Source: Quercus robur
Taxonomy: Eukaryota; Streptophyta; Magnoliopsida; Fagales; Fagaceae
Direction of reading: 5' to 3'
Assembly: GCF_932294415.1 (NCBI RefSeq)
Contig: NC_065544.1
Coordinates: 12,809,351-12,873,350, forward strand
Length of the DNA stretch: 64,000 bases
Below, piece after piece: positions 35,301-60,960 of the stretch. The translations under genes were made by a program, and so were the position numbers. Positions within the stretch are counted from its first letter, which is position 1. Every line of letters starts with the position of its first letter. The notes under the pieces were generated by a model, which worked only from the letters and a program-made list of their open reading frames with translations, was not told the DNA's origin and made no database searches.

Positions 35301-38300
35301 ATTTTATTTATTTATTTGTGCTCAAAGTACAAATCAAAATGAAAGGAATATATCTTGAGAATGCAGATCTACTTTCACCAAGAACTAATGCTGCATAAAT
35401 GTGAAGCAGGAAAGTCTTAGGAGAAAAATCTAATAGAAAACATACATCGGCTGCATTACACCCAGAGTAGGTTGAGAAGGATATGCAATTCCCAATGATC
35501 CTGGTACAACACCACCAACTAGCGAGGTAGTTGGGATATCCACTTTAGCCACTTTCGATGCACCTTCTTCATCTGCAAAATAGTACAGATGTCAGAAGGT
35601 AATCATAGTATGTTAATGCTTTTAACTTCCCCAATGCAACATATACAAACTCTCCATTACTATGTGAAAATAACCTCACTGTTCCAAATTGTCCTACAGA
35701 TTGTTATTGGACTAAATGGGAAGATACAAATGACATCACACATCAGTAAACTTAAAAATAAAAATAAAAAACAAGTTAACTGTAAGGCACAGGAGAGAGC
35801 CACACATGTTATGTTACACTAATAGTCAATGGTTGACAAGTGTTGAACCACCATAACAAATGAATAGTTAGAAAGTTTTTTCAATATATTACACTCATGT
35901 CGATAGAATGATTTGAACCCTTTATTTTTTCTTTTTCAACTTATTTATTGGAAAAAAAAATTACGAGTATTTCAACCCCTCTTTTTAATTTAATGCTGAA
36001 TCGATGACCCACATATACATTAAGAAAAATTCTTTGGATTTGAAAAAATAAAATGGTTCTGCTAGTCCAACGACACCTATAAACAAGGCAAGCCAAAAAT
36101 ATGATTTTCCTTTGATTACACACACACCCATGGATCTTGAACCCACAGTCTCAATCACTGCCTTACTATTCCAAGGGAAGGAGATACCATTTGAGCTAAA
36201 GCTCATTTTCTTGGGAACAAGTAAACTGATTCTTTTGTGATCAGTGGTTTTGGACCTAAATAGAAGGGAATGGAAGGAGATGAGACTCCCACCAATCTTG
36301 TGTATCACACAAATAGTTAGCAGGTGATTCCCTACCACCACTTTAAAATTTCAGCCCTCCCACATGAATGATTCATCAATAGACAGTTGGGAGTACCATT
36401 ATCCCTTTCAAAATTTAACCTCCATTTTAAATTGAGTGACCAACAGAGACATGCTTCCTATATGACATTATTCCAACATGAAAGGGATAATGGGTTATTC
36501 GAATATGATGTTATATGTGACCTGGCACAACAAAATATAGGATGCCCCTTCCTCTACATATACGGGGATTAGTTCCTAAGCTGGTAGTCAGACCCACCAT
36601 CCAATCTGAAAAAAAAAAATTTTGAATTCTACCTAAATCATTTACTAGTCCAACCTAGGAATACACTAGTTTTCAACATAATTTAGTCTCCCCCAAATAA
36701 GAATTATTTCAGAAATAGAGAATAAGGCTGAAGTAGAGAGAGGAAGAGGAGGAGAAAAAAGAACTGATGGAAAACCAAGCACTGTGGAGAAATTGAGTGG
36801 ACAGCACAAACATCCGTACAAGAGGTCCCAACTAGAGAGTTGCACAAAACCTTTACTTGCAAAAGAAAAATTTATTCAAAATGCTACAAAGAACAAATAA
36901 ATGATTCTGAAGTGTGGCAATTTCACGTAAATGGAAAAAGAAACAACAAAAGTCAAGGAAAACATGAAAAAACCAACTGCTGATTAATATATCGATAGTA
37001 TAATTCAACATGTCATTATTATTTTTTTTTTAATATGTATAACATGTCATTAATGTTCTTCAATAAGTTCAATAAAATGTCATTAATACATTCAATCTTG
37101 AATAATTCAATACCATATTTAAAAATAAACCATTTCAGGGCAGAGCCAGAAATTTTGTTGTGTGGACAAAATTATTTCCTTTCCAGAAATTTTCTTTTGG
37201 CCATAGTTCGAGTATATTATAGAACTCGTTCCCCACCACATAGATATCATAATAACAATCCAACACACAAATTGGAGACTTGAGTGCTGGAGTTCACATA
37301 GATAGCATAAAAACTATACGATCTATCAGCAAAGGATAGATGGCAAAATGATCTAATCAATAAAGCTGTCAAAATATACTTTTTTTTTAAACTACCACAA
37401 TATACATGCATATAAATAGATAGATATATATGAATTAATTAAAACTAAAAAACAGGACCAAATGCTTTCAACTAGATGTTGGTGATGTTATTAGATGAAG
37501 CCATGAAGGAACTGCAAAGGGAAAATCCTAACAAGAATAACCTAAATCAGATCCAGAACCAGCAAATGCAATCCCAACTATTTAAATGGGCTCCTTCAAG
37601 TTATGAAAATTGTTTTTTTAATAGTAAGTAACACATTCACCGAGTGGGTCTTTGATGAAGACAAGGAAGCGCTCAAGGAAAAAGAAGATTAAATATACAA
37701 AGATTCAAGAATTGTGGTCTAATTTTGATGTCGGACCTTCTTAGCACCTTTGATAGGTCATTTTAGTTATTAGTAATTTAAGTCTTTTAGGTTGAGAAGC
37801 TGCTGGATCAGTTTTAATTAAGTTCTATTAGAATAAGGGCAATTTGGTAATTTCCAGAAATCGGGAATGGGCTGTCCTTGGCCGTACCAAAGGACCATAG
37901 TTATCCTTTTCCTAGTAGGAATTGGACTATAAACAACCTATTCCTAGACTGAATAGCAATACTAATAATAATTACATAAAAGACTTAATAATACGTAAAC
38001 ATAAAATAAGACTCATGGGCCTTTGGTACGGCCAAGGACAGCCCATTCCATATTTCTGAAAATTACCAAATTGCCCTTATTCTAATGGAACTTAATTAAA
38101 ACTGATCCAGCAGCTTCTCAACCTAAAAGACTTAAATTACTAATAACTAAAATGACCTATCAAAGGTGCTAAGAAGGTCCAACATCAAAATTAGAACACA
38201 ATTCTTAAATCTTTGTATATTTAATCTTCTTTTTCCTTGAGCTCTTCCTTGTCTTCATCAGTCTTGAACCCACAGCCTCACCCTCCACCTAGCACTTGCA

Positions 38301-50771: not shown

Positions 50772-53700
50772 TCAGGCCCATCTGGCAAGGAGTGACATAC
50801 AACCTGAACCCAGCAAAAGTGAAAGATGAGCCCCAAGCTGGAGCCTCAAATTGCTTTGCATTCGAGGGTTCATGAAATCAGCTGCAAGAAGGTCGACCAA
50901 AGCCATGTAGATTAAGATCCCAGCTGAGGCAGAGTTGAACAGACCTTCCACAATCAATGCTGTTGGGCTATTCTCCTTGTAGATATTTGATATTCCCATG
51001 CCAATTGTTATTCCAAATGGAGTTGTGAGAGAGAAAAAAAGTATCATAATTGCAATGGCTCGAGACTTGAATTTTGCCTGCACAAAATATTGAAATCAAG
51101 CACCGACCAGATAGGAATCAAGTGTGCCCATCCATTGATAATGATAGTTCGATTCAATGCTCTATCTATTCCCTTAGTCAATTCTTCTATCCCTTCTAAA
51201 TATTACTTTATACTTTTTCATAGCCACCAAATGCCATTTAGGACAGATAAGCATTATCCGTCTTATAATTTTAACATATGTGAATCCTATATAGTCGATA
51301 ATTATAAGAAATATATCATGAAAGAGATTATGTATAATGTATATCAAATACACAATAAATTTTCTACAACAGGATGGTCCATGAATTTGTGGATTCTACT
51401 TACAATTAAGGGAGTGTTTTGCATTGAGTTAATTGTGTTAGGACTGCTAAGTGTTTTAAGGCTTCAAAAGCTCTTTACTAAGGGGAAAAAGCAAATTTAA
51501 AAATTAAAAAAAAAAAAAAAATCCGTTTGACAAAATTTTAGTAGAGCTTGTTTTGAAAAGTTTAAGTTTAAAGAACATTTTTTAAGTATATAAGATTGTA
51601 GTAAGAAGAAAAGTTTAAATTATAGAACTTTTGTAGAAATTATAAAAAAGTTAGCATTTGTAAGATATAGTTTTAAAAAGTGTTAAAGATGTTTATGCCT
51701 ATTTAATAACCAAATTGAAAAAGAACTCATAAAAGTAAGAAATGATTATAAAAGTATTCCTAAATATCCTGATATTATCTTATAAATTTACGAAATTTCA
51801 TACTTAAATCCAAAAAAATTAATTATTGACCAATGCTTATTAATATGTGTTGCATGCCACCACGTGTTATCTCACTTTAGGATGGTCTACGGATGTGTGG
51901 ATCCTACTTTACTATAAAACATGTTTCATGCAATAAGTGCACTAAATAATTCAAAATATTACTTAAAAGAAATTATGTAGATTTCCGTTAGCTTAATTTT
52001 ATAAAGATGTTATGCCTATTTGATAACCAATTTTTTTTTTTTTTTATGGGATTTGATAACCAAATTGATAAAGTACTCATAAAAGTGAGAAATGATATAT
52101 AAGTATTACTACTAAATATCCCAATATCATCTTGTAAATACTAAATTTCATAATCTAAATAATTTAATTATTGACCCACTAACATTTGTGTTGCATACAC
52201 CATGTGTTATCTCACCTCAAGATGGTCCACGGATGTGTGGATCCCACTTTACTGGGAAACATGTCATATGCAAGAAGTGCAGACTTCTATGTTATAGTGT
52301 ACCAATAATTGTTTCTCAAAAAAAAAAAAAAAATACCAATAATTGTAGGACTACAATTTACAATGTTTACCGCATAATTTCTCAAAGTTATACTATGGGA
52401 CTGATTATAAGTGGGAGAAAAAAAATAATTAGTTGATGTAAAGATGATAGAAAACTAATTATAATCTACTCATATAATAATTGTGAAAAATAGTGCCGCA
52501 AATGTTCTGATCATTTAAAAAATGTGCCATATTTTGTTAGACAGTGAGGTTTCATCATCCTTCACTCAAAAAAAATTGAAGTTCCATTATCCTGTCCTTT
52601 CCAAGGGACCCCATTGTTGTGATAATCCAAAGGCCCAAGCACAAACTACTAAAAGATCAACATTGACCGCAATGACTGACTTTGGATATCATATCACTTC
52701 ACTTTATTTGAAAGTGAAATGACGGGGCACTAGTATTAGTACATTTTGTGCCTAATGAATAAAAAAATAAAAAAATAAAGGACTTTAGAAGATTTCAACA
52801 TTGACGGCAATGACTGCCTTTGTGAATTTCATTGAAGTAGACTTGCGTTTGTGATTGAATCATATGATGCTTTAGAAGAAAAAAAAAAAAAAAAACAGTA
52901 CGGAGTATAATATAGTCGAATATAATTTGGACCATTATGGAGGGTATGTATTAGACCGATAATACACCCTGCAACGGGTATATGTTACTTGCGTCTCACA
53001 ATGGGTATAACTTCTCGTATTAGACAGTCTAATAAATACGTCCACATCATTGCAAGATGTTGTAATGTGTCCTATCATATGGGTGAAGGCTATCCCCTAC
53101 ATTTATTTATAAAAAATAAAATAACAAGGCTATCTCCTCTAGCTTTTGTTAACACGTGTATAACATGTGTCATTTTGTTAAGGCTTTAAACGGGTCTCAC
53201 TTATATTAGAGATAACAAAAAGCTAATAAACTAGTATTATTTAAATTGAAAATAACGTTACTCTATTAAAAGCTAATCACAATTGTCATCGTGTTTTAAG
53301 GAGACTTCATACGAGTTTCACTTATATGATAGAGTAAAAGATGCTAATAAATAAATATTATTTAAATTGAAAATGGCTGAACTCCTTAATTATTAAAAGC
53401 CAATTGATTAACATGAGACAAATCTCTTATTTTTGGAAATTCTCATAATATCCCTAATTTGAAATTATCTACACATATTGTAATTTTTTATTTTCTTTTT
53501 GAGAACCAATAGAATTAGATAAATACTCTAAAAAATTAATGCTAGCGAAAAGCAAATTTTTTCACTAAACTTTAAAGTTGTCCTATTCAATTTGATCTCT
53601 TTAATAAATTATTTATCCTAGTAAATATTATTATTAATAGTTGTGCTATTTCAAGATTTTAAAAAAAAAAAATTATGGACGAAAGCGTGCCTATCTTTTT

Positions 53701-55588
53701 CTTTTTATTTGGAATGGAGAGAGTCATTTTATGAATTAGATTAATTTTAAATGATATGATATTATGTACAACGTTAAATAAAATGATAAAATCACATATT
53801 TTAGTTTTAGTTTTTCTCCTTTCTATTTAGATCATGTTCACCTTTTTCTTTTTAAAATTTGATTTTTCTCTCTTTGTCTTGGTTGGTAGGTGCAGTGTTG
53901 CAACTACACAGATAAGGATATATATATTCATATTGTGTCAAATACAAGAAATAAAAATAATACCTGAGAGATGCATCCACCAAGACCCAAACCTTCAAAA
54001 AATTGATGGAAAGTCAATGCTGCTACAAGGGGCTTGATTGTTTTTGGGCTTTCAGAAGCACCAAGAGAGATGCCAATAATTACGGAATGCACCACAATTC
54101 CCAACTCCAAAACCTATACACAAAATTTTGTCCAAACCTTTTTAAGTTTTAAAGAATTACTATATATTCTTCGAACCTTTTATCAAAAAAGAAAAAGAAA
54201 AAAAGAAATACTATATATTATAATCCTACTTTCCTTTGCTAAGGAAACTCCATTACATATTTACATTTTTTTTTTTTGGGTAAGACACATTTACAGTTTC
54301 GAAAGGTTTTGAAGAGGTGCAAATGTACAATTCAAACTTGTCTCATTCATAAAGATTAAAAACATTGAAAACAACAAGACTTTAGAAAGCATGAGATTTT
54401 TCTTAATAAAGTAATAAACACAAGGAAAAAAAAAAAAAACAGTTATATAGCATTTTGGAATTGGCTCAAGATTTATTATTTTTAAGAAACATAGGAAACA
54501 AAGGTCTGGCAAAACACCAGAGTAAATAGGAAACACATGATATATTTTTTACTAAAAAGAATCTAAATCAACTATATTTTGAAGTTTATGTCTAACTAAT
54601 TTTTTTACTCTAACTTTAGTTAACTCAATTGCTAAAATCTAGACTTTCTCCTAAAATAAATATATTTTTTTAATTTATTAAAATGATAGTAAAGAATAAT
54701 TATTATCGAACAACGGTACAAGTCCAACAAATCCTATATATCTAAAAAAATTTTTTTTTTCAAACCTATTTCTCTTTTCAAGTTCACATGATTTTTATTT
54801 GTAGGTTTAAAATATCATACTTGTTCAAAGAATGAGGAGGGGAACACATAAAAATACAAGAGAACAAGAAACAGAGGAAGCAGGGGACACAAAGAGTGTG
54901 TACTCAATTATCAAAACACACCCAAAAAAGTTGAATCCAATTAAGAAAATTGGAACAAAAAGAAAAAAGAAGAAGAAGAAGACCCATTTAGTACCTGAGA
55001 TATAACTCGGTATCTAAGAAGAACCTCGGACCCCAAATCCTCAACAACAAATGCAGACCCATGAGCATGACCATGAGTCTTATGTGTGTGTACATGTACA
55101 TGACCCTCATGCTCACCTTGCTGCTCTTCGTCCCCACTAAGAGGTCTACCTTTAACGAAGTGTGATCTTTTATAGTAATTAGTTGCAAAAGTATCTATCA
55201 TCAGGGTACCAATAGCAGAGAGCATAGCAACAAAGCCAGTGAATGGGAAATTGCCCCAAGGTTTTTGGCCAAGACAAGGACTTGTTAAGCTCTCAAAAGC
55301 GTCTGGTAATATGTGGATAAACCCAGTTGCAAGAATCACACCAGCTGCAAAGGCTTTGATTATGAAGAAGATGTTGTTTTCAGGGTTTAGAGTTGGGATT
55401 TTTTTGCCTATGATTGGGAGTGACACGCCAAGTCCACTTGCTATTAGGATTGTACTTATTGCTACTAGCTTGAACTTTAGAGCTTTGGTTTTGTTTCTTT
55501 CTTCGGGTTGGGTTTCACAGCTACATTCTGCAAAGGCCAAAAGAGGAAGAGCAAGAAGAAGGAAGTAAAACAAGATGAGCTTGCTCAT
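50772..55588 (-). CDS. ZIP1: ZIP-family zinc/iron transporter, ZIP1 type
   Basis: The protein imports Zn2+ (possibly other divalent metals) across a membrane, in the clade of Arabidopsis ZIP1/ZIP3/ZIP5. Three exons, 55588-54995, 54113-53964 and 51077-50772, all in phase 0, give 349 residues, a normal length. A signal-like hydrophobic start (1-20) precedes a Cys-containing ECSCE. TM1-3 follow with [20 protein letters not shown]. The variable loop carries a His-rich metal-binding stretch, [20 protein letters not shown] (158-177). TM4 has H207 in [12 protein letters not shown] and TM5 has [11 protein letters not shown] (234-244), the ZIP signature. The end is MSLLARWA. I chose MSKL as the start, not the ATG 39 codons upstream, because signal peptide and family alignment begin there. 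Intron 2 is 2.9 kb. A near-identical extra first exon lies 3.7 kb upstream. By eye I saw no rtgtcgacay zinc-response element. Confidence 0.95.
51690..52285. repeat. Tandem duplication in ZIP intron 2 (about 325-bp spacing)
   Basis: Blocks ttatgcctattt, actcataaaagt, aatatc, tgttatctcac, gatggtc and acggatgtgtggatcc appear in the same order at 51,690-51,940 and 52,010-52,285. Similarity is roughly 80% by eye, so the event is older than the ZIP exon duplication. A poly(T) insertion marks the second copy. Confidence 0.75.
53150..53400. repeat. Diverged tandem repeat in ZIP intron 2 (about 125-bp unit)
   Basis: Two copies of a unit containing cacttatat, gctaataaa, tagtattatttaaattgaaaa-type sequence and ttaaaagc(t/c)aa follow each other from about 53,165 and 53,290. 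Similarity is moderate. No function is apparent. Confidence 0.6.
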
Positions 55589-57970
55589 GGTTTGAGAGAG
55601 AGAGAGAGAGAGTTTACGAGTGTTTTGTAGAGTATGTGGGGTTGTGAGTTGGGCTCGAGAGGCTTTGCATTCAAATATGTTTGAGTGAGACCGTGAGAGA
55701 GTCAAATGAATGAGGTAAGTAAAAGTGAGGCGAAACTACATTCTTCATCATTGAAGTATATTCCATGAGCGTAATTGGTTCTTTTAAGTTTAAGTGAGTA
55801 CTATTAGTTCTCAAGTTTAAAAATAAAACTTTCTTTCCTCTTTTTATGTGTATGTGTTAAAAATATTTAGTATTTTTAAAAGGAAAAATTATAGGTTAAT
55901 CTTACATTGAAAAATGAGTGTGAGTTAAAAAGGTCTAAAGTCTATGCTGTGTATCCAAGAGTTAGGTCATTTTTCTTTAAAAAACCTTTTCCCCTCTCTC
56001 CATGTGTGTGTTAAAAATATTTAGTATTCTAAAAAAGAAAAGTTTTTAAAAAAAGCAATATTATTCTATTTCTTAATTGCTGTCAGTATATTATTTACTT
56101 GGTTAATAAAATACTGACTTGGCATTTTTTTAATAAAAAAATTATAAAAATTTTTTTCAAGTAAAAAAATCATTAATAATAAAAAAGAAAAGTTAACGAA
56201 TGCTTTAAGGACATTAGTTTAGAATATATATATATATATATATATTTAAAAAAAAAGTATGAAAAAAGAAAAAAAAAAAAAGTAACCAACTCTTTACAGC
56301 TTTTTATATTTTCTATGATATTTAAAATAATTTTTTTTTAAAATTATTTATTAACAAATTGCTTGAGGGTAACGATTAACGGAACCCATACTAAAATACT
56401 TGACCCGGCATATCAAACCCTTTAATACATAATATAACTCGGTTGCAGTCTTTCAGAGAGGGTACACATGAAACGAAAAGAGAGTTACAATTAATCGGTG
56501 AATATGACGTGGCATGTAAGCAAAAAGGTTATTAAGCCAAAATGGCGACATTATGAGTAAATTGAGAAATGGCAACATGGAATTGCATGATGCAAGTTTG
56601 GAATTGAGTAGGGATTGACAAGTGTGTGGTAATTATGCCTATATGACAACATTATGAGTTAACTGAAGTTACTGAACTGATATAATTGAACTTACCAGCA
56701 AAAAGGTTCTTAGTTAAATTCTTTTTGCCGTGTAAAAGGGAATCAAATAATTGATGGGATAATGTTATGTACACAATAATTTCATAACAAATTTTAGATG
56801 GTAAAATTTTTAACGATGAGTAAAAAATGTGATATTAGTAATGTGCTATATTATAATTAGTATTAGCTTGCCATGGATAAAAAAAAAAATGATGTTAGTA
56901 GTGTGCTATATTATAATTAATATTAACTTGTCATTTTAGATTTGGTGTGAAATTATTATGAAAATATTACGAGCCTAATATTATTATAATTTAAAAGTAT
57001 AATAAATTGAAAATTTTATCCAAAATGACAACACCTAACCAATCTTACAAATCTGTTGAGAATCCCTAGTTGTTTATAAAAATTTGGGTTTTAAGCATTG
57101 GGATTAGCGTTTGGGAGTAGTTGTTTTTATACATACAAAATGATACAATCAGCTTAAATTTACACTTATAAATCAATAATTTATTTATTTATTTTTAACA
57201 TGTCCACACAAGTTAAAAGAAAGGGTAAAGTTTGTAATACACACAATTTTACACACGTCAATATATCCAAGAAGAAAATATTTAAGTCAATTAAGTTGTG
57301 CAGCGTTACCGTGGGGATTTTGACTCTAGGGACCCAGCTATGGTCCAGTGTGGAATCATTGGCTTTTTAGAAAAGAAACAAAGGGTTATGCAGACATTGG
57401 TAAGTTTAAGAAAGTTAAGGACTGAAGAATATTTAAGCTTCTTGGAGGTCTTAGGAGTAAACTTTATAATTCTTTTTAAAATATCTAATACATCAATAAT
57501 TTCCACAACTCGACTTGACAAGTTAGGAGTGGTAGAGTAAAAGTAACCGTTCGAAACTCTACCATTAATAGGTGAGTTATGACAAAAATGGTGTAAATTA
57601 TTGTGATTCATACTTATTAAATTATTTTTTTACAAAAGGTTACCGACATGCATATAAATTAAATGATGTCATTTATTTTTTAAGATGAAAAAGAAAAAGA
57701 ATAAAAGCGATTTTTTTGGTAGAATAAGAGAGATCGATTGATATATAAGTAATAAGTGGAGTAATAATAATTAATGGCCTTATAACTTAGGGGATATTAA
57801 GTATATCTTTTTGTTGGAATTGAGAACGTAATTCTATGTATATTGGATGATGGAAATTCTATAAAGAGGAGGCGTATGTGTAGAGACTAGAGAGGCAAGA
57901 GCGACAACAATACTTTTTTTTTTAGGGAAAAAGAGAGACAACAATACAATGACAACACAGCCACGGACAA
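54550..57970. repeat. Segmental duplication, copy A (contains ZIP exon 1)
   Basis: This block and 58,255-60,960 share ordered homology. Shared landmarks are the AT-rich start near aagtttatg(t/g)ctaact, the exon-1 3' flank (acttgttcaaagaatg), exon 1 and its leader, gggattgacaagtgtgtgg, ggaatcattggctt, ttttgttgg and the end near gaccagagagac/acaatgacaacac. The coding part is about 94% identical. Non-coding parts have many indels, so the copies differ in length (about 3.4 against 2.7 kb). Confidence 0.85.
56762..56975. mobile_element. Small MITE with inverted ends
   Basis: The left end (caataatttcataacaaattttag) is cut here to caataatttcataac; it is mirrored by gtgaaattattatgaaaat at the right end. 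Inside, gtgatattagtaatgtgctatattataatta is doubled with small changes (start gtgatattagtaatg and gatgttagtagtgtg). It occurs in copy A of the segmental duplication but has no counterpart in copy B, so it inserted after the duplication or was lost from B. Confidence 0.55.
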
Positions 57971-58692
57971 CATATAATAATAATAATACAATAGCACTTT
58001 TAGTGATACTAGTTTAGATGGCGTGCGCAAAACACGCGCTACTGTTTGATTGCGAAATTAAGATAAAGATTATATTTGAAGAATTATGAAACTTTATACT
58101 AAAAAATAAATGTATATATAGTATATAATGTTAATCTCATTCATATAAAATTTTTTATAACACTCAAACTTAGAGTAACTAATTAATATATGAAATATCA
58201 ATTTTTCTACTATAGTTTCTTAGAGCTTATTTTTCTGAAGGCAACATATCTTAAATAAATTATATTTCGAAGTTTATGGCTAACTAAATTCTCTCTCCTT
58301 GGTTTATTTAACTTTAGCTAACTCATTGGTAAAATCTTGAATTTCCTTTAGAGAAAAACTTTTTAATGTCTTGAAATTATAATAAAGAACAATTATATTT
58401 TTGTAAACCAATTTCTCTTTTCATTTTTACTTGATTTTTTTTCTTTGTAGGCATAAAAATTATACTTGTTCAAAGAATGGGAAGGGGAACACATTAAAAA
58501 GAGAGAGAGAGAGAGAGAGAGAAGCAGAAGAAGAAGAAGTAGAAGAAGTCAACAACAACAACAAGAAACAGAGGAGGCAAGGGACACAAAGAGAGTGTAT
58601 TCAATTATCAACAAGCACCCAACAAACTTGAATCCAAGTAAGAAAAAATTGGAATAAAAAAAGGAAAAAAACCCTTAAGGACTCATTATTAC

Positions 58693-59286
58693 CTGAGATA
58701 TTACACGATGTCTAAGAAGATCCTCGGACCCCGAATCATCAGCAACAAATGCAGAGCCGTGAGCATGTCCATGAGTTTTATGTGTGTGGACATGTACATG
58801 ACCCTCATGCTCGCCTTGCTGCTCTTCGTCCCCACTAAGAGGTCTAGCTTTAACGAAGTGTGATCTTTTATAGTAACCAGTTGCAAAAGTATCTATCATC
58901 AGGGTACCAATAGCTGAGAGCATAGCAACAAAGCCAGTGAATGGGAAATCACCCCAAGGTTTTTGGCCAAGACAAGGACTTGTTAAGCTCTCAAAAGCGT
59001 CTGGTAATATGTGGATAAACCCAGTTGCGAGAATCACACCAGCTGCAAAGGCTTTGATCATGAAGAAGATGTTGTTTTCAGGGTTCAAAGTTGGGATTTT
59101 TTTGCCTACGATTGGGAGTGACACACCAAGTCCACTTGCTATTAGGATTGTACATATTGCTACTAGCTTGAACTTAAGAGCTTTGGTTTTGTTTCTTTCT
59201 TCGGGTTGGGTTTCACAGCTACATTCAGCAAAGGCCGAAAGAGGAAGAACAAGAAGAAGTAAGTAAAACAAGATGAGCTTGCTCAT
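58693..59286 (-). CDS. Duplicate ZIP1-type first exon (partial gene)
   Basis: This is an intact 198-codon open exon matching exon 1 of the ZIP gene at 184 of 198 residues by my count. It keeps the start MSKL, signal-like segment, TM1-3, [20 protein letters not shown] and the same splice donor (ctcag then gtaata). No counterpart of exons 2 or 3 exists between it and copy A or upstream to the window end. Alone it would encode a truncated protein lacking TM4-8 and the catalytic histidines. Because its donor is in the same phase, it could splice to the shared exons at 54113 and 51077 and act as an alternative first exon. Otherwise it is a partial-duplicate pseudogene. Confidence 0.88.
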
Positions 59287-59390
59287 GGTTTCAAAGAGAG
59301 AGAGAGAGAGAGAGAGAGGGAGTAAAAGAGTGTGTTTTGTTGAGTATGTAGGGTTGTGAGTTGTGATTAATGAGAGGTCTTGCATTCAAA

Positions 59391-59399
59391 TATATACAT
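59391..59399 (-). promoter_or_regulatory. TATA-like box of the duplicate ZIP first exon
   Basis: On the minus strand tgtatatatttg lies about 105 bases before the duplicate start codon, followed by a CT-rich leader. The matching place in copy A (about 55,671-55,685) reads aaacatatttg, a poorer TATA match, so the two first exons may differ in core-promoter strength. Confidence 0.45.
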
Positions 59400-60776
59400 T
59401 TAGGAGTTCGAGAGAGAGAGAGAGAGAGAGTCAAATGAATGAATGAAGTAGGTAAAAAGTTAAGGAGTGAGAAATGAGGACATGAAATTCCTTGAAGAAT
59501 GTTTTGAGTTGTCGAGGGATTGACAAGTGTGTGGTGATTAAGCAAAAATGACGACATTATGAGTTAATTAGCTCATAATTGCACTTTTGGTTTTTTTGAC
59601 TGAAAGTTGATAATTCATAATGGAACTTACCAAAAAGGTTATTAGGTAAATTCCATTTGCCGGGTAAAAGACTAAAAGGTAATCAGTGAAAGGTGTATTT
59701 TTCCTTTCTAAAATGACATCACGAATGGTTGAGAATACATACCTGTCTCAAAAAATTTGGAATTAGACATTGGTAGTGTTTTTTTTTTTTTTTTTTTAAA
59801 TAATATTTAATCTGTAAAAATATATTTTAAAAAATACATAACATTAAATTTATACCTGTAATCATTAAATTATTTATAAGTAATTATTTTCCTAAAAAAA
59901 TGTCTTGCAACTTATAATTATATGTTTATTTATTTTTAATATGATTTATATTAACATGTGCCTTTAGGGCAATTGTTAAGAAAGCATTTTTAAAAAGTTT
60001 TTATATTATTTTTATGAAAAATTGAAAATAATTGTTAAAACATTAATTACTTTTTCTCTTTTTTCATATAAACTTTTCTAAAATGGTTCACTAACAAATA
60101 TCCTCTAACATTCATTAACATTTCCCTCTTAATATAACCTGACACACATAATAAAAAATAATTTGAAATCTATTAAGTGTGCGTTTGAGATTGCTTAAAA
60201 AAAGCCAATTTTTTATTTTTATTTTTTTTATTACTATTCAACTTATTTATGAGTCCAATTGTACTTTTTAATACTATTTATAGACCTCACTATACTATTT
60301 CAAGTACCTTTTAACTTAAACTTTGCAATTTTACAACATTGACTTGACTCTGGGCCCAATTATGGGCTAGGGTGGCACCAATGGAATCATTGGCTTGATA
60401 GAATAGAAATTAGGCGTGTGGCGGAGAAATTAGGCTAGCTTTATAATGCCTTCACATACGAAGGTTAATGGATTTGCTCAAAAAAAAGAAGGTTAATGGC
60501 ATGCGTGGGAATGATGTCATCTAAAAGTTAAAAAAAGGAAAATGAATAAAAATAAAGGATTGATCGGTATATAATAATATGTGGAATAATTATAATTAAA
60601 TAACTTAGTTGGATTAAGTGTTTCTTTTTGTTGGCAAATAATCTCATAATTCAATTAATTGATATCTCTTTATGTTTTTTATGAAGATATTCAAAATTCA
60701 AATATTTTATTCTCCAACTATCGAATTATGGTAAACAAAATGTATTTCTTTTATTGCAACTGAGAATCTCTCTCTA

Positions 60777-60825
<49 letters not shown>

Positions 60826-60960
60826 CTCTATATATATTGAATGATGGAAATACTTTACAAATTAAGGATGTTGTAATATTGTTGTAACTTGTATATATAA
60901 ATAAAGAGACCAGAGAGACAACTGCAATACAATGACAACATAACAATAGTACACTAACAC

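Follow-up and report, generated by a model that had tools for sequence, protein, structure and literature searches.

A tandem duplicate of the promoter and first exon of a ZIP transporter gene in Quercus robur as a candidate alternative first exon

Results

A ZIP transporter gene with an additional first exon

The window, i.e., the whole 64-kb stretch of Quercus robur DNA analysed here, carries on its minus strand a ZIP transporter gene of three exons and, upstream of it on the same strand, an extra copy of the first exon. In the following, A denotes the first exon that belongs to the complete gene and B the extra copy (a slash in the donor marks the exon end).

50772 to 51077, minus strand: exon 3 with the stop codon TGA
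53964 to 54113, minus strand: exon 2, the shared core, containing the HQFFEG stretch
54995 to 55588, minus strand: exon 1 of copy A, 198 codons, ATG at 55588, donor CAG/GTACTA
58693 to 59286, minus strand: extra exon 1 of copy B, 198 codons, ATG at 59286, phase 0, donor CAG/GTAATA

Exon 1 of copy A together with exons 2 and 3 makes up the complete gene, which encodes 349 residues. Each first exon is 594 nt long, and the two differ by 32 substitutions (6/7/19 by codon position) and no indels, corresponding to 94.6% identity; over this length, and with colinear blocks flanking the exons on top, a chance likeness is no issue. The sequence-only reading of this DNA had described the extra exon as an intact frame with the same donor and the same phase, which proved correct: both 594-nt frames are open, both donors read CAG/GT and both are in phase 0, so that either exon fits the same exon 2. 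A hypothetical splice product of B exon 1 with exons 2 and 3 would have an open frame of 349 residues, the same length as the A protein. Both proteins matched the whole TIGR00820 profile (positions 1-324 of 324), with 469.6 bits for A and 472.7 bits for the hypothetical B hybrid (cut-off 231.15), and by this full-length match above the cut-off both fall into the ZIP zinc/iron transport family, the first half contributed by B fitting the profile no worse than that of A. B exon 1 alone scored 107 bits against Pfam Zip (cut-off 35.1), while a PDB sequence search with the A protein gave no matches at E 0.001. Within intron 2 of the gene, two 84-nt direct repeats (51858-52281) are 85% alike and lie 340 nt apart from start to start.

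The codon differences between A and B comprise 15 synonymous and 14 replacement codons. The number of 14 residue differences stated earlier was recovered exactly, with three located in the signal segment and five at residues 182-193, and the His-rich stretch itself is untouched, so that the protein difference would be subtle. According to the topology that we assume for this family, exon 1 encodes the signal segment, the first membrane spans and the His-rich loop, and exon 2 presumably carries the histidine-bearing spans of the transport core. Left unspliced, the frame of B exon 1 ends after 203 residues, and such a product alone should be no transporter of the ZIP type. Scoring single swaps against TIGR00820 covered eight of the 14 changes (F9L, A13V, L17S, V182A, E183D and L185S were omitted) and shifted the score by at most 0.9 bits, with four swaps going up, one equal and three going down; shifts this small and of mixed direction are uninformative on which copy is older.

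Extent of the duplicated segment

The duplicated unit extends beyond the exon on both sides, as shown by colinear local matches.

58252 to 60940, minus strand: copy B of the duplicated unit (upstream DNA, exon 1 and part of intron 1), from colinear blocks, outer limit approximate
57958 to 58251, minus strand: junction filler of about 290 nt between the B intron piece and the A upstream DNA
54564 to 57957, minus strand: copy A of the duplicated unit, from colinear blocks, outer limit approximate

Upstream DNA common to both copies amounts to 1.7 kb in B and 2.4 kb in A. Local blocks were used for these upstream stretches, which a global MAFFT alignment misplaced, and since the outermost blocks are short, AT-rich and chosen for colinearity from a longer list of weak matches, the outer limit of the duplication is only approximate. 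The strongest block joins B 59450-58388 to A 55721-54746 with 82.8% identity. Moreover, 431-441 nt of intron 1 belong to the unit (B 58692-58252, A 54994-54564). The earlier statement that only exon 1 and upstream DNA were duplicated is thus right about these two parts, both of which are present twice, and wrong about their being the only ones.

Searches at the protein and DNA level (DNA E 0.05) found no remnant of exons 2 and 3 beside B, and no second exon 2 or 3 was found within the 64-kb window. The filler showed no similarity to exons 2-3 and no convincing match elsewhere in the window. A comparison of the surroundings of B with intron 2, the 3' flank and the remaining intron 1 of A gave short AT-rich or simple-repeat matches, of which the best (E 1e-9, 60746-60817) lies in a TA repeat; none of them was taken for a remnant. 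A single tandem duplication with one breakpoint upstream and one in intron 1 is the simplest history for this layout.

At the junction of the copies, the stretch 58005-58062 has GCGC motifs and ends in CTAAACTAGT; it is reminiscent of a Helitron end. We do not claim a Helitron end at this place (CTAGT near 58010), as the scan did not list it, no convincing second copy turned up in the window and the fold is weak.

Promoter regions of the two copies

The upstream DNA of the two copies differs in several features.

59391 to 59396, minus strand: TATA box of copy B (TATATA), 110 nt before the B ATG
59548 to 59557, unstranded: ATGACGACAT, an exact RTGWCGACAY, one mismatch from RTGTCGACAY, 262-271 nt before the B ATG
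56643 to 56652, unstranded: ATGACAACAT, the A counterpart of the B element, one base off RTGWCGACAY
56542 to 56551, unstranded: ATGGCGACAT, a second A copy of the element, one base off, within a 39-nt repeat
55722 to 56562, minus strand: 841 nt in the A promoter; in B the two flanking blocks are separated by 17 nt (either A gained sequence here or B lost it)

That B has the better TATA box, as suggested before, holds: TATAWA occurs at 59396 and is absent from the matching A stretch (55760-55589). The zinc-deficiency element bound by F-group bZIP factors is RTGTCGACAY. In its original form it has no exact match in the 64-kb window, and with one mismatch it has four sites, a number of at least four being found in 14 of 100 shuffles. 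Among the ZIP4/9/IRT3 orthologs surveyed in PMC5476651, RTGACGACAY is the commonest variation (17 of 76 elements), and a later paper uses RTGWCGACAY as its search pattern (PMC9279927). The sole exact match to RTGWCGACAY in the 64-kb window is 59548-59557, in the B promoter. Shuffled windows held a mean of 0.23 such sites and 17 of 100 had at least one, so the mere presence of one match in the window is not striking; its placement in the B promoter is, the expectation being about 0.004 per kb by arithmetic from the shuffle mean. In the A promoter the surroundings of the element are present twice, each copy one base off. Allowing up to one mismatch to RTGWCGACAY gave 10 distinct sites, nine of them between 56542 and 60941, although several of the ten are mutual copies, one is exonic, and the total of 14 rows was reached by 19 of 100 shuffles. 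Speaking against a zinc response, MtZIP1 lacks such an element (PMC9279927), so a ZIP1-type gene, as the sequence-only reading labelled this one, need not be a zinc-deficiency target. The extra 0.8 kb of the A promoter also contains a 57-nt repeat (55834-56044, two copies, 154 nt from start to start).

Divergence of the second first exon

We compared the exon with its flanks in order to judge whether B is decaying. Four aligned flank blocks totalling 668 nt show 103 substitutions and 24 indels between the copies, against 32 and none in the 594 nt of the exon; as the four blocks are the best-matching parts of the flanks, the substitution contrast is if anything understated, while the flank indel rate is inflated by several indels in simple repeats. 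Assuming an unchanged A and a B that drifts neutrally at the rates of the flanks, a count of at most 32 differences has P = 0.014. The joint outcome of few differences, no indel and no stop appeared in none of 4000 neutral-B runs at the full flank indel rate, in none of 4000 at one third and in two of 4000 at one sixth of that rate. Taken singly, the absence of stops says little, as 26-27% of the runs were free of them, and 18% were free of indels if one sixth of the flank indel rate applies.

The differences within the exon are furthermore concentrated at third codon positions (19 of 32, P = 0.002), and the NG86 estimates are dN 0.033 and dS 0.137. In a codon model the single omega is 0.27; over the whole exon a neutral B is worse by 2dlnL 3.3 to 4.8, which is a weak test, and a model with both copies neutral is worse by 12.6. 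A pseudogene that was neutral since the duplication would be expected to show flank-like divergence with stops or frameshifts, and the B exon shows neither. An old relic in free decay would hardly look like B. Judged by these comparisons, B is apparently either an exon held under constraint through most of its history or one that was overwritten in part by A sequence, a conclusion that is silent on its present use.

Other features of the window

Further observations concern regions away from the ZIP gene. At 37653-38260 lies an inverted repeat with 246-nt arms, 96% complementary and 116 nt apart, a possible foldback element or source of hairpin RNA. A match to the Rfam family of the plastid atpF group II intron at 35871-35923 (55.9 bits, cut-off 52.5) may derive from plastid DNA inserted into the nuclear genome. 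In addition, an uninterrupted frame of 443 codons at 13602-14933 matches F-box and KIB1-4 beta-propeller families.

Discussion

A candidate alternative first exon

The reading we prefer, and to which we give about an even chance, is that B serves as a type I (mutually exclusive) alternative first exon of the ZIP gene. A segment reaching from some 1.7-2.4 kb upstream of the gene to about 430 nt into intron 1 is present as two tandem copies on the same strand, and copy B kept its promoter and first exon. Transcripts from B would start some 30 nt after the B TATA box and be spliced from the donor after 58693, removing 4,579 nt that include the whole A promoter and A exon 1, so that B exon 1 would be joined to exons 2 and 3 of A. 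The product would be a 349-residue ZIP protein that departs from that of A at 14 of its first 198 positions and is expressed from a promoter combining a TATA box with the variant of the zinc-deficiency element, and the conservation of the exon may be owed to this use. The difference in promoters is more likely the point of the duplicate than the difference in protein.

A useful B protein requires the splice from the donor after 58693 to 54113. By predicted pairing with U1 the B donor is slightly better than that of A (-8.1 against -7.1 kcal/mol, with -7.2 for exon 2), and both fall well short of a perfect donor (-14.0). The sequence-only reading had proposed the same use of B and had argued that A exon 1 has no splice acceptor and is therefore skipped. 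The proposal retains the frame, the donor, the phase, the TATA box, the element variant, an exon better conserved than its flanks and the finding of no other exon 2 or 3 near B. The argument for skipping does not stand, since a good-looking acceptor-like site lies within A exon 1.

55528 to 55545, minus strand: acceptor-like site in A exon 1, CTCTTTTGGCCTTTGCAG, final G at 55528, TTTGCAG where B has TTTGCTG

The statement that A exon 1 is free of acceptors is unsafe with TTTGCAG/A at 55528, and skipping of A exon 1 is not forced: use of this site would put a B transcript out of frame.

Alternative explanations

The main rival regards B as what is left of the 5' part of a complete tandem ZIP gene that recently lost exons 2 and 3 by deletion, the frame being still intact for lack of time and any RNA from B being a short dead end. 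Past constraint is expected under this explanation too, and so is a complete promoter. Tandem ZIP pairs are not unusual in plants, and the filler at 58251-57958 lacks a convincing match elsewhere in the window and could be the scar of the deletion. Against this, the searches around B recovered nothing of exons 2 and 3, and the layout follows in a single step from the one duplication described above, with its breakpoints upstream of the exon and within intron 1. We consider the recent loss possible, if somewhat unlikely.

Another explanation starts from the 55528 site: B transcripts would mostly use it, A exon 1 would become an internal exon (type II), the frame would stop after 214 codons, and B would lower the output of the gene or be neutral noise. 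With TTTGCAG and a pyrimidine-rich run (13 of 16), the site ranks first of the 191 AG sites in the stretch (score 4.91), above the true exon-2 acceptor in second place (2.70); the exon-3 acceptor scores 6.21 with the same matrix. The matrix consists of approximate plant frequencies and is trained on no species, so its scores are indicative, and sites of that score number 27 among 7,260 AG sites on both strands of the window, or about one per 4.6 kb, which is why the 55528 site need not mean anything. A join of 58693 to 55527 shifts the frame, and the stop reached after 214 codons lies about 480 nt short of the next junction; RNA with such a premature stop is usually removed by decay pathways. 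The change between TTTGCAG in A and TTTGCTG in B is a synonymous codon difference. Type II events make up 83-90% of the alternative first exon events in Arabidopsis and rice (PMC2174465), which speaks for this explanation. By itself it does not account for the conservation of the B frame, however, and we hold it to be unlikely.

A combination of both outcomes is also conceivable and would amount to a zinc switch with two promoters, in which B, the copy with the better-kept promoter and first exon, is induced under zinc shortage via the element at 59548 and some of its transcripts take in A exon 1 at the 55528 site as a poison exon, the output being set by skipping (functional ZIP) versus inclusion (premature stop). 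This switch is a speculative and very unlikely extension.

Highly unlikely in our view is that B has had no function ever since it arose and that its exon was kept intact by gene conversion from A, the two copies being 3.7 kb apart. Synonymous differences are indeed unevenly spread, with seven in codons 1-140 and eight in the much shorter stretch of codons 141-198 (P = 0.042), so some gene conversion is possible and part of the similarity between A and B could be due to a partial conversion. For codons 1-140 the codon model fails to reject a neutral B (2dlnL 0.35 to 0.73). Codons 141-198, the least likely to have been converted, nevertheless speak against neutrality (2dlnL 5.0 to 6.2), with omega 0.15, no indel and no stop. 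Finally, an assembly artefact, in which two loci or a full gene pair were wrongly joined or collapsed, is very improbable, as the flank blocks are 13-18% different and carry numerous indels, a divergence that usually exceeds that of two alleles, and the window contains no N.

Relation to known systems

Together, these observations place the locus beside two kinds of known arrangement. The first is the alternative first exon of plants, which is common (1,378 clusters in rice and 645 in Arabidopsis, mostly type II; PMC2174465). If B is used as proposed, our candidate would share with the type I cases described there the mutually exclusive first exons, the common downstream exons, the often separate promoters and the changed N-terminus. 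Unlike that set, the A and B first exons are clear duplicates of each other and contribute a coding stretch of 198 codons, and the distance between the A and B ATG is 3,698 nt, whereas start sites in Arabidopsis are on average 1,644 nt apart (PMC2174465); the strings 'duplicat' and 'tandem' are absent from the main text of that paper. Within the ZIP family as defined by TIGR00820, where both A and the hypothetical B hybrid match the full profile, it is the extra upstream first exon that sets the locus apart. A limited literature search yielded no plant ZIP transporter with a duplicated first exon among the matches listed, and one paper reportedly deals with MSH1 genes of green plants and their partial duplications (PMC10487979). 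An unused B would be nothing more than a common kind of partial duplicate; what would be of note, if true, is a metal transporter of a plant in which a coding first exon has been duplicated and stands under a zinc-responsive promoter.

The second is found in vertebrates, where UGT1 and GCNT2 have duplicated first exons on a shared core (PMC1885805) and each UGT1 first exon has its own promoter (PMC3325998). The oak locus resembles these in its tandem duplicated first exons and one constant set of downstream exons, and differs from them in having two copies only, in encoding a plant metal transporter and in that its splicing is predicted. If B is used, the locus would show how an acceptor-like site inside the old first exon can hinder such a duplicate. 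Through the duplication of little more than a promoter and first exon, a zinc transporter would then have gained another start under separate control while its transport core stayed shared, an incipient plant counterpart to the variable-first-exon clusters of vertebrates.
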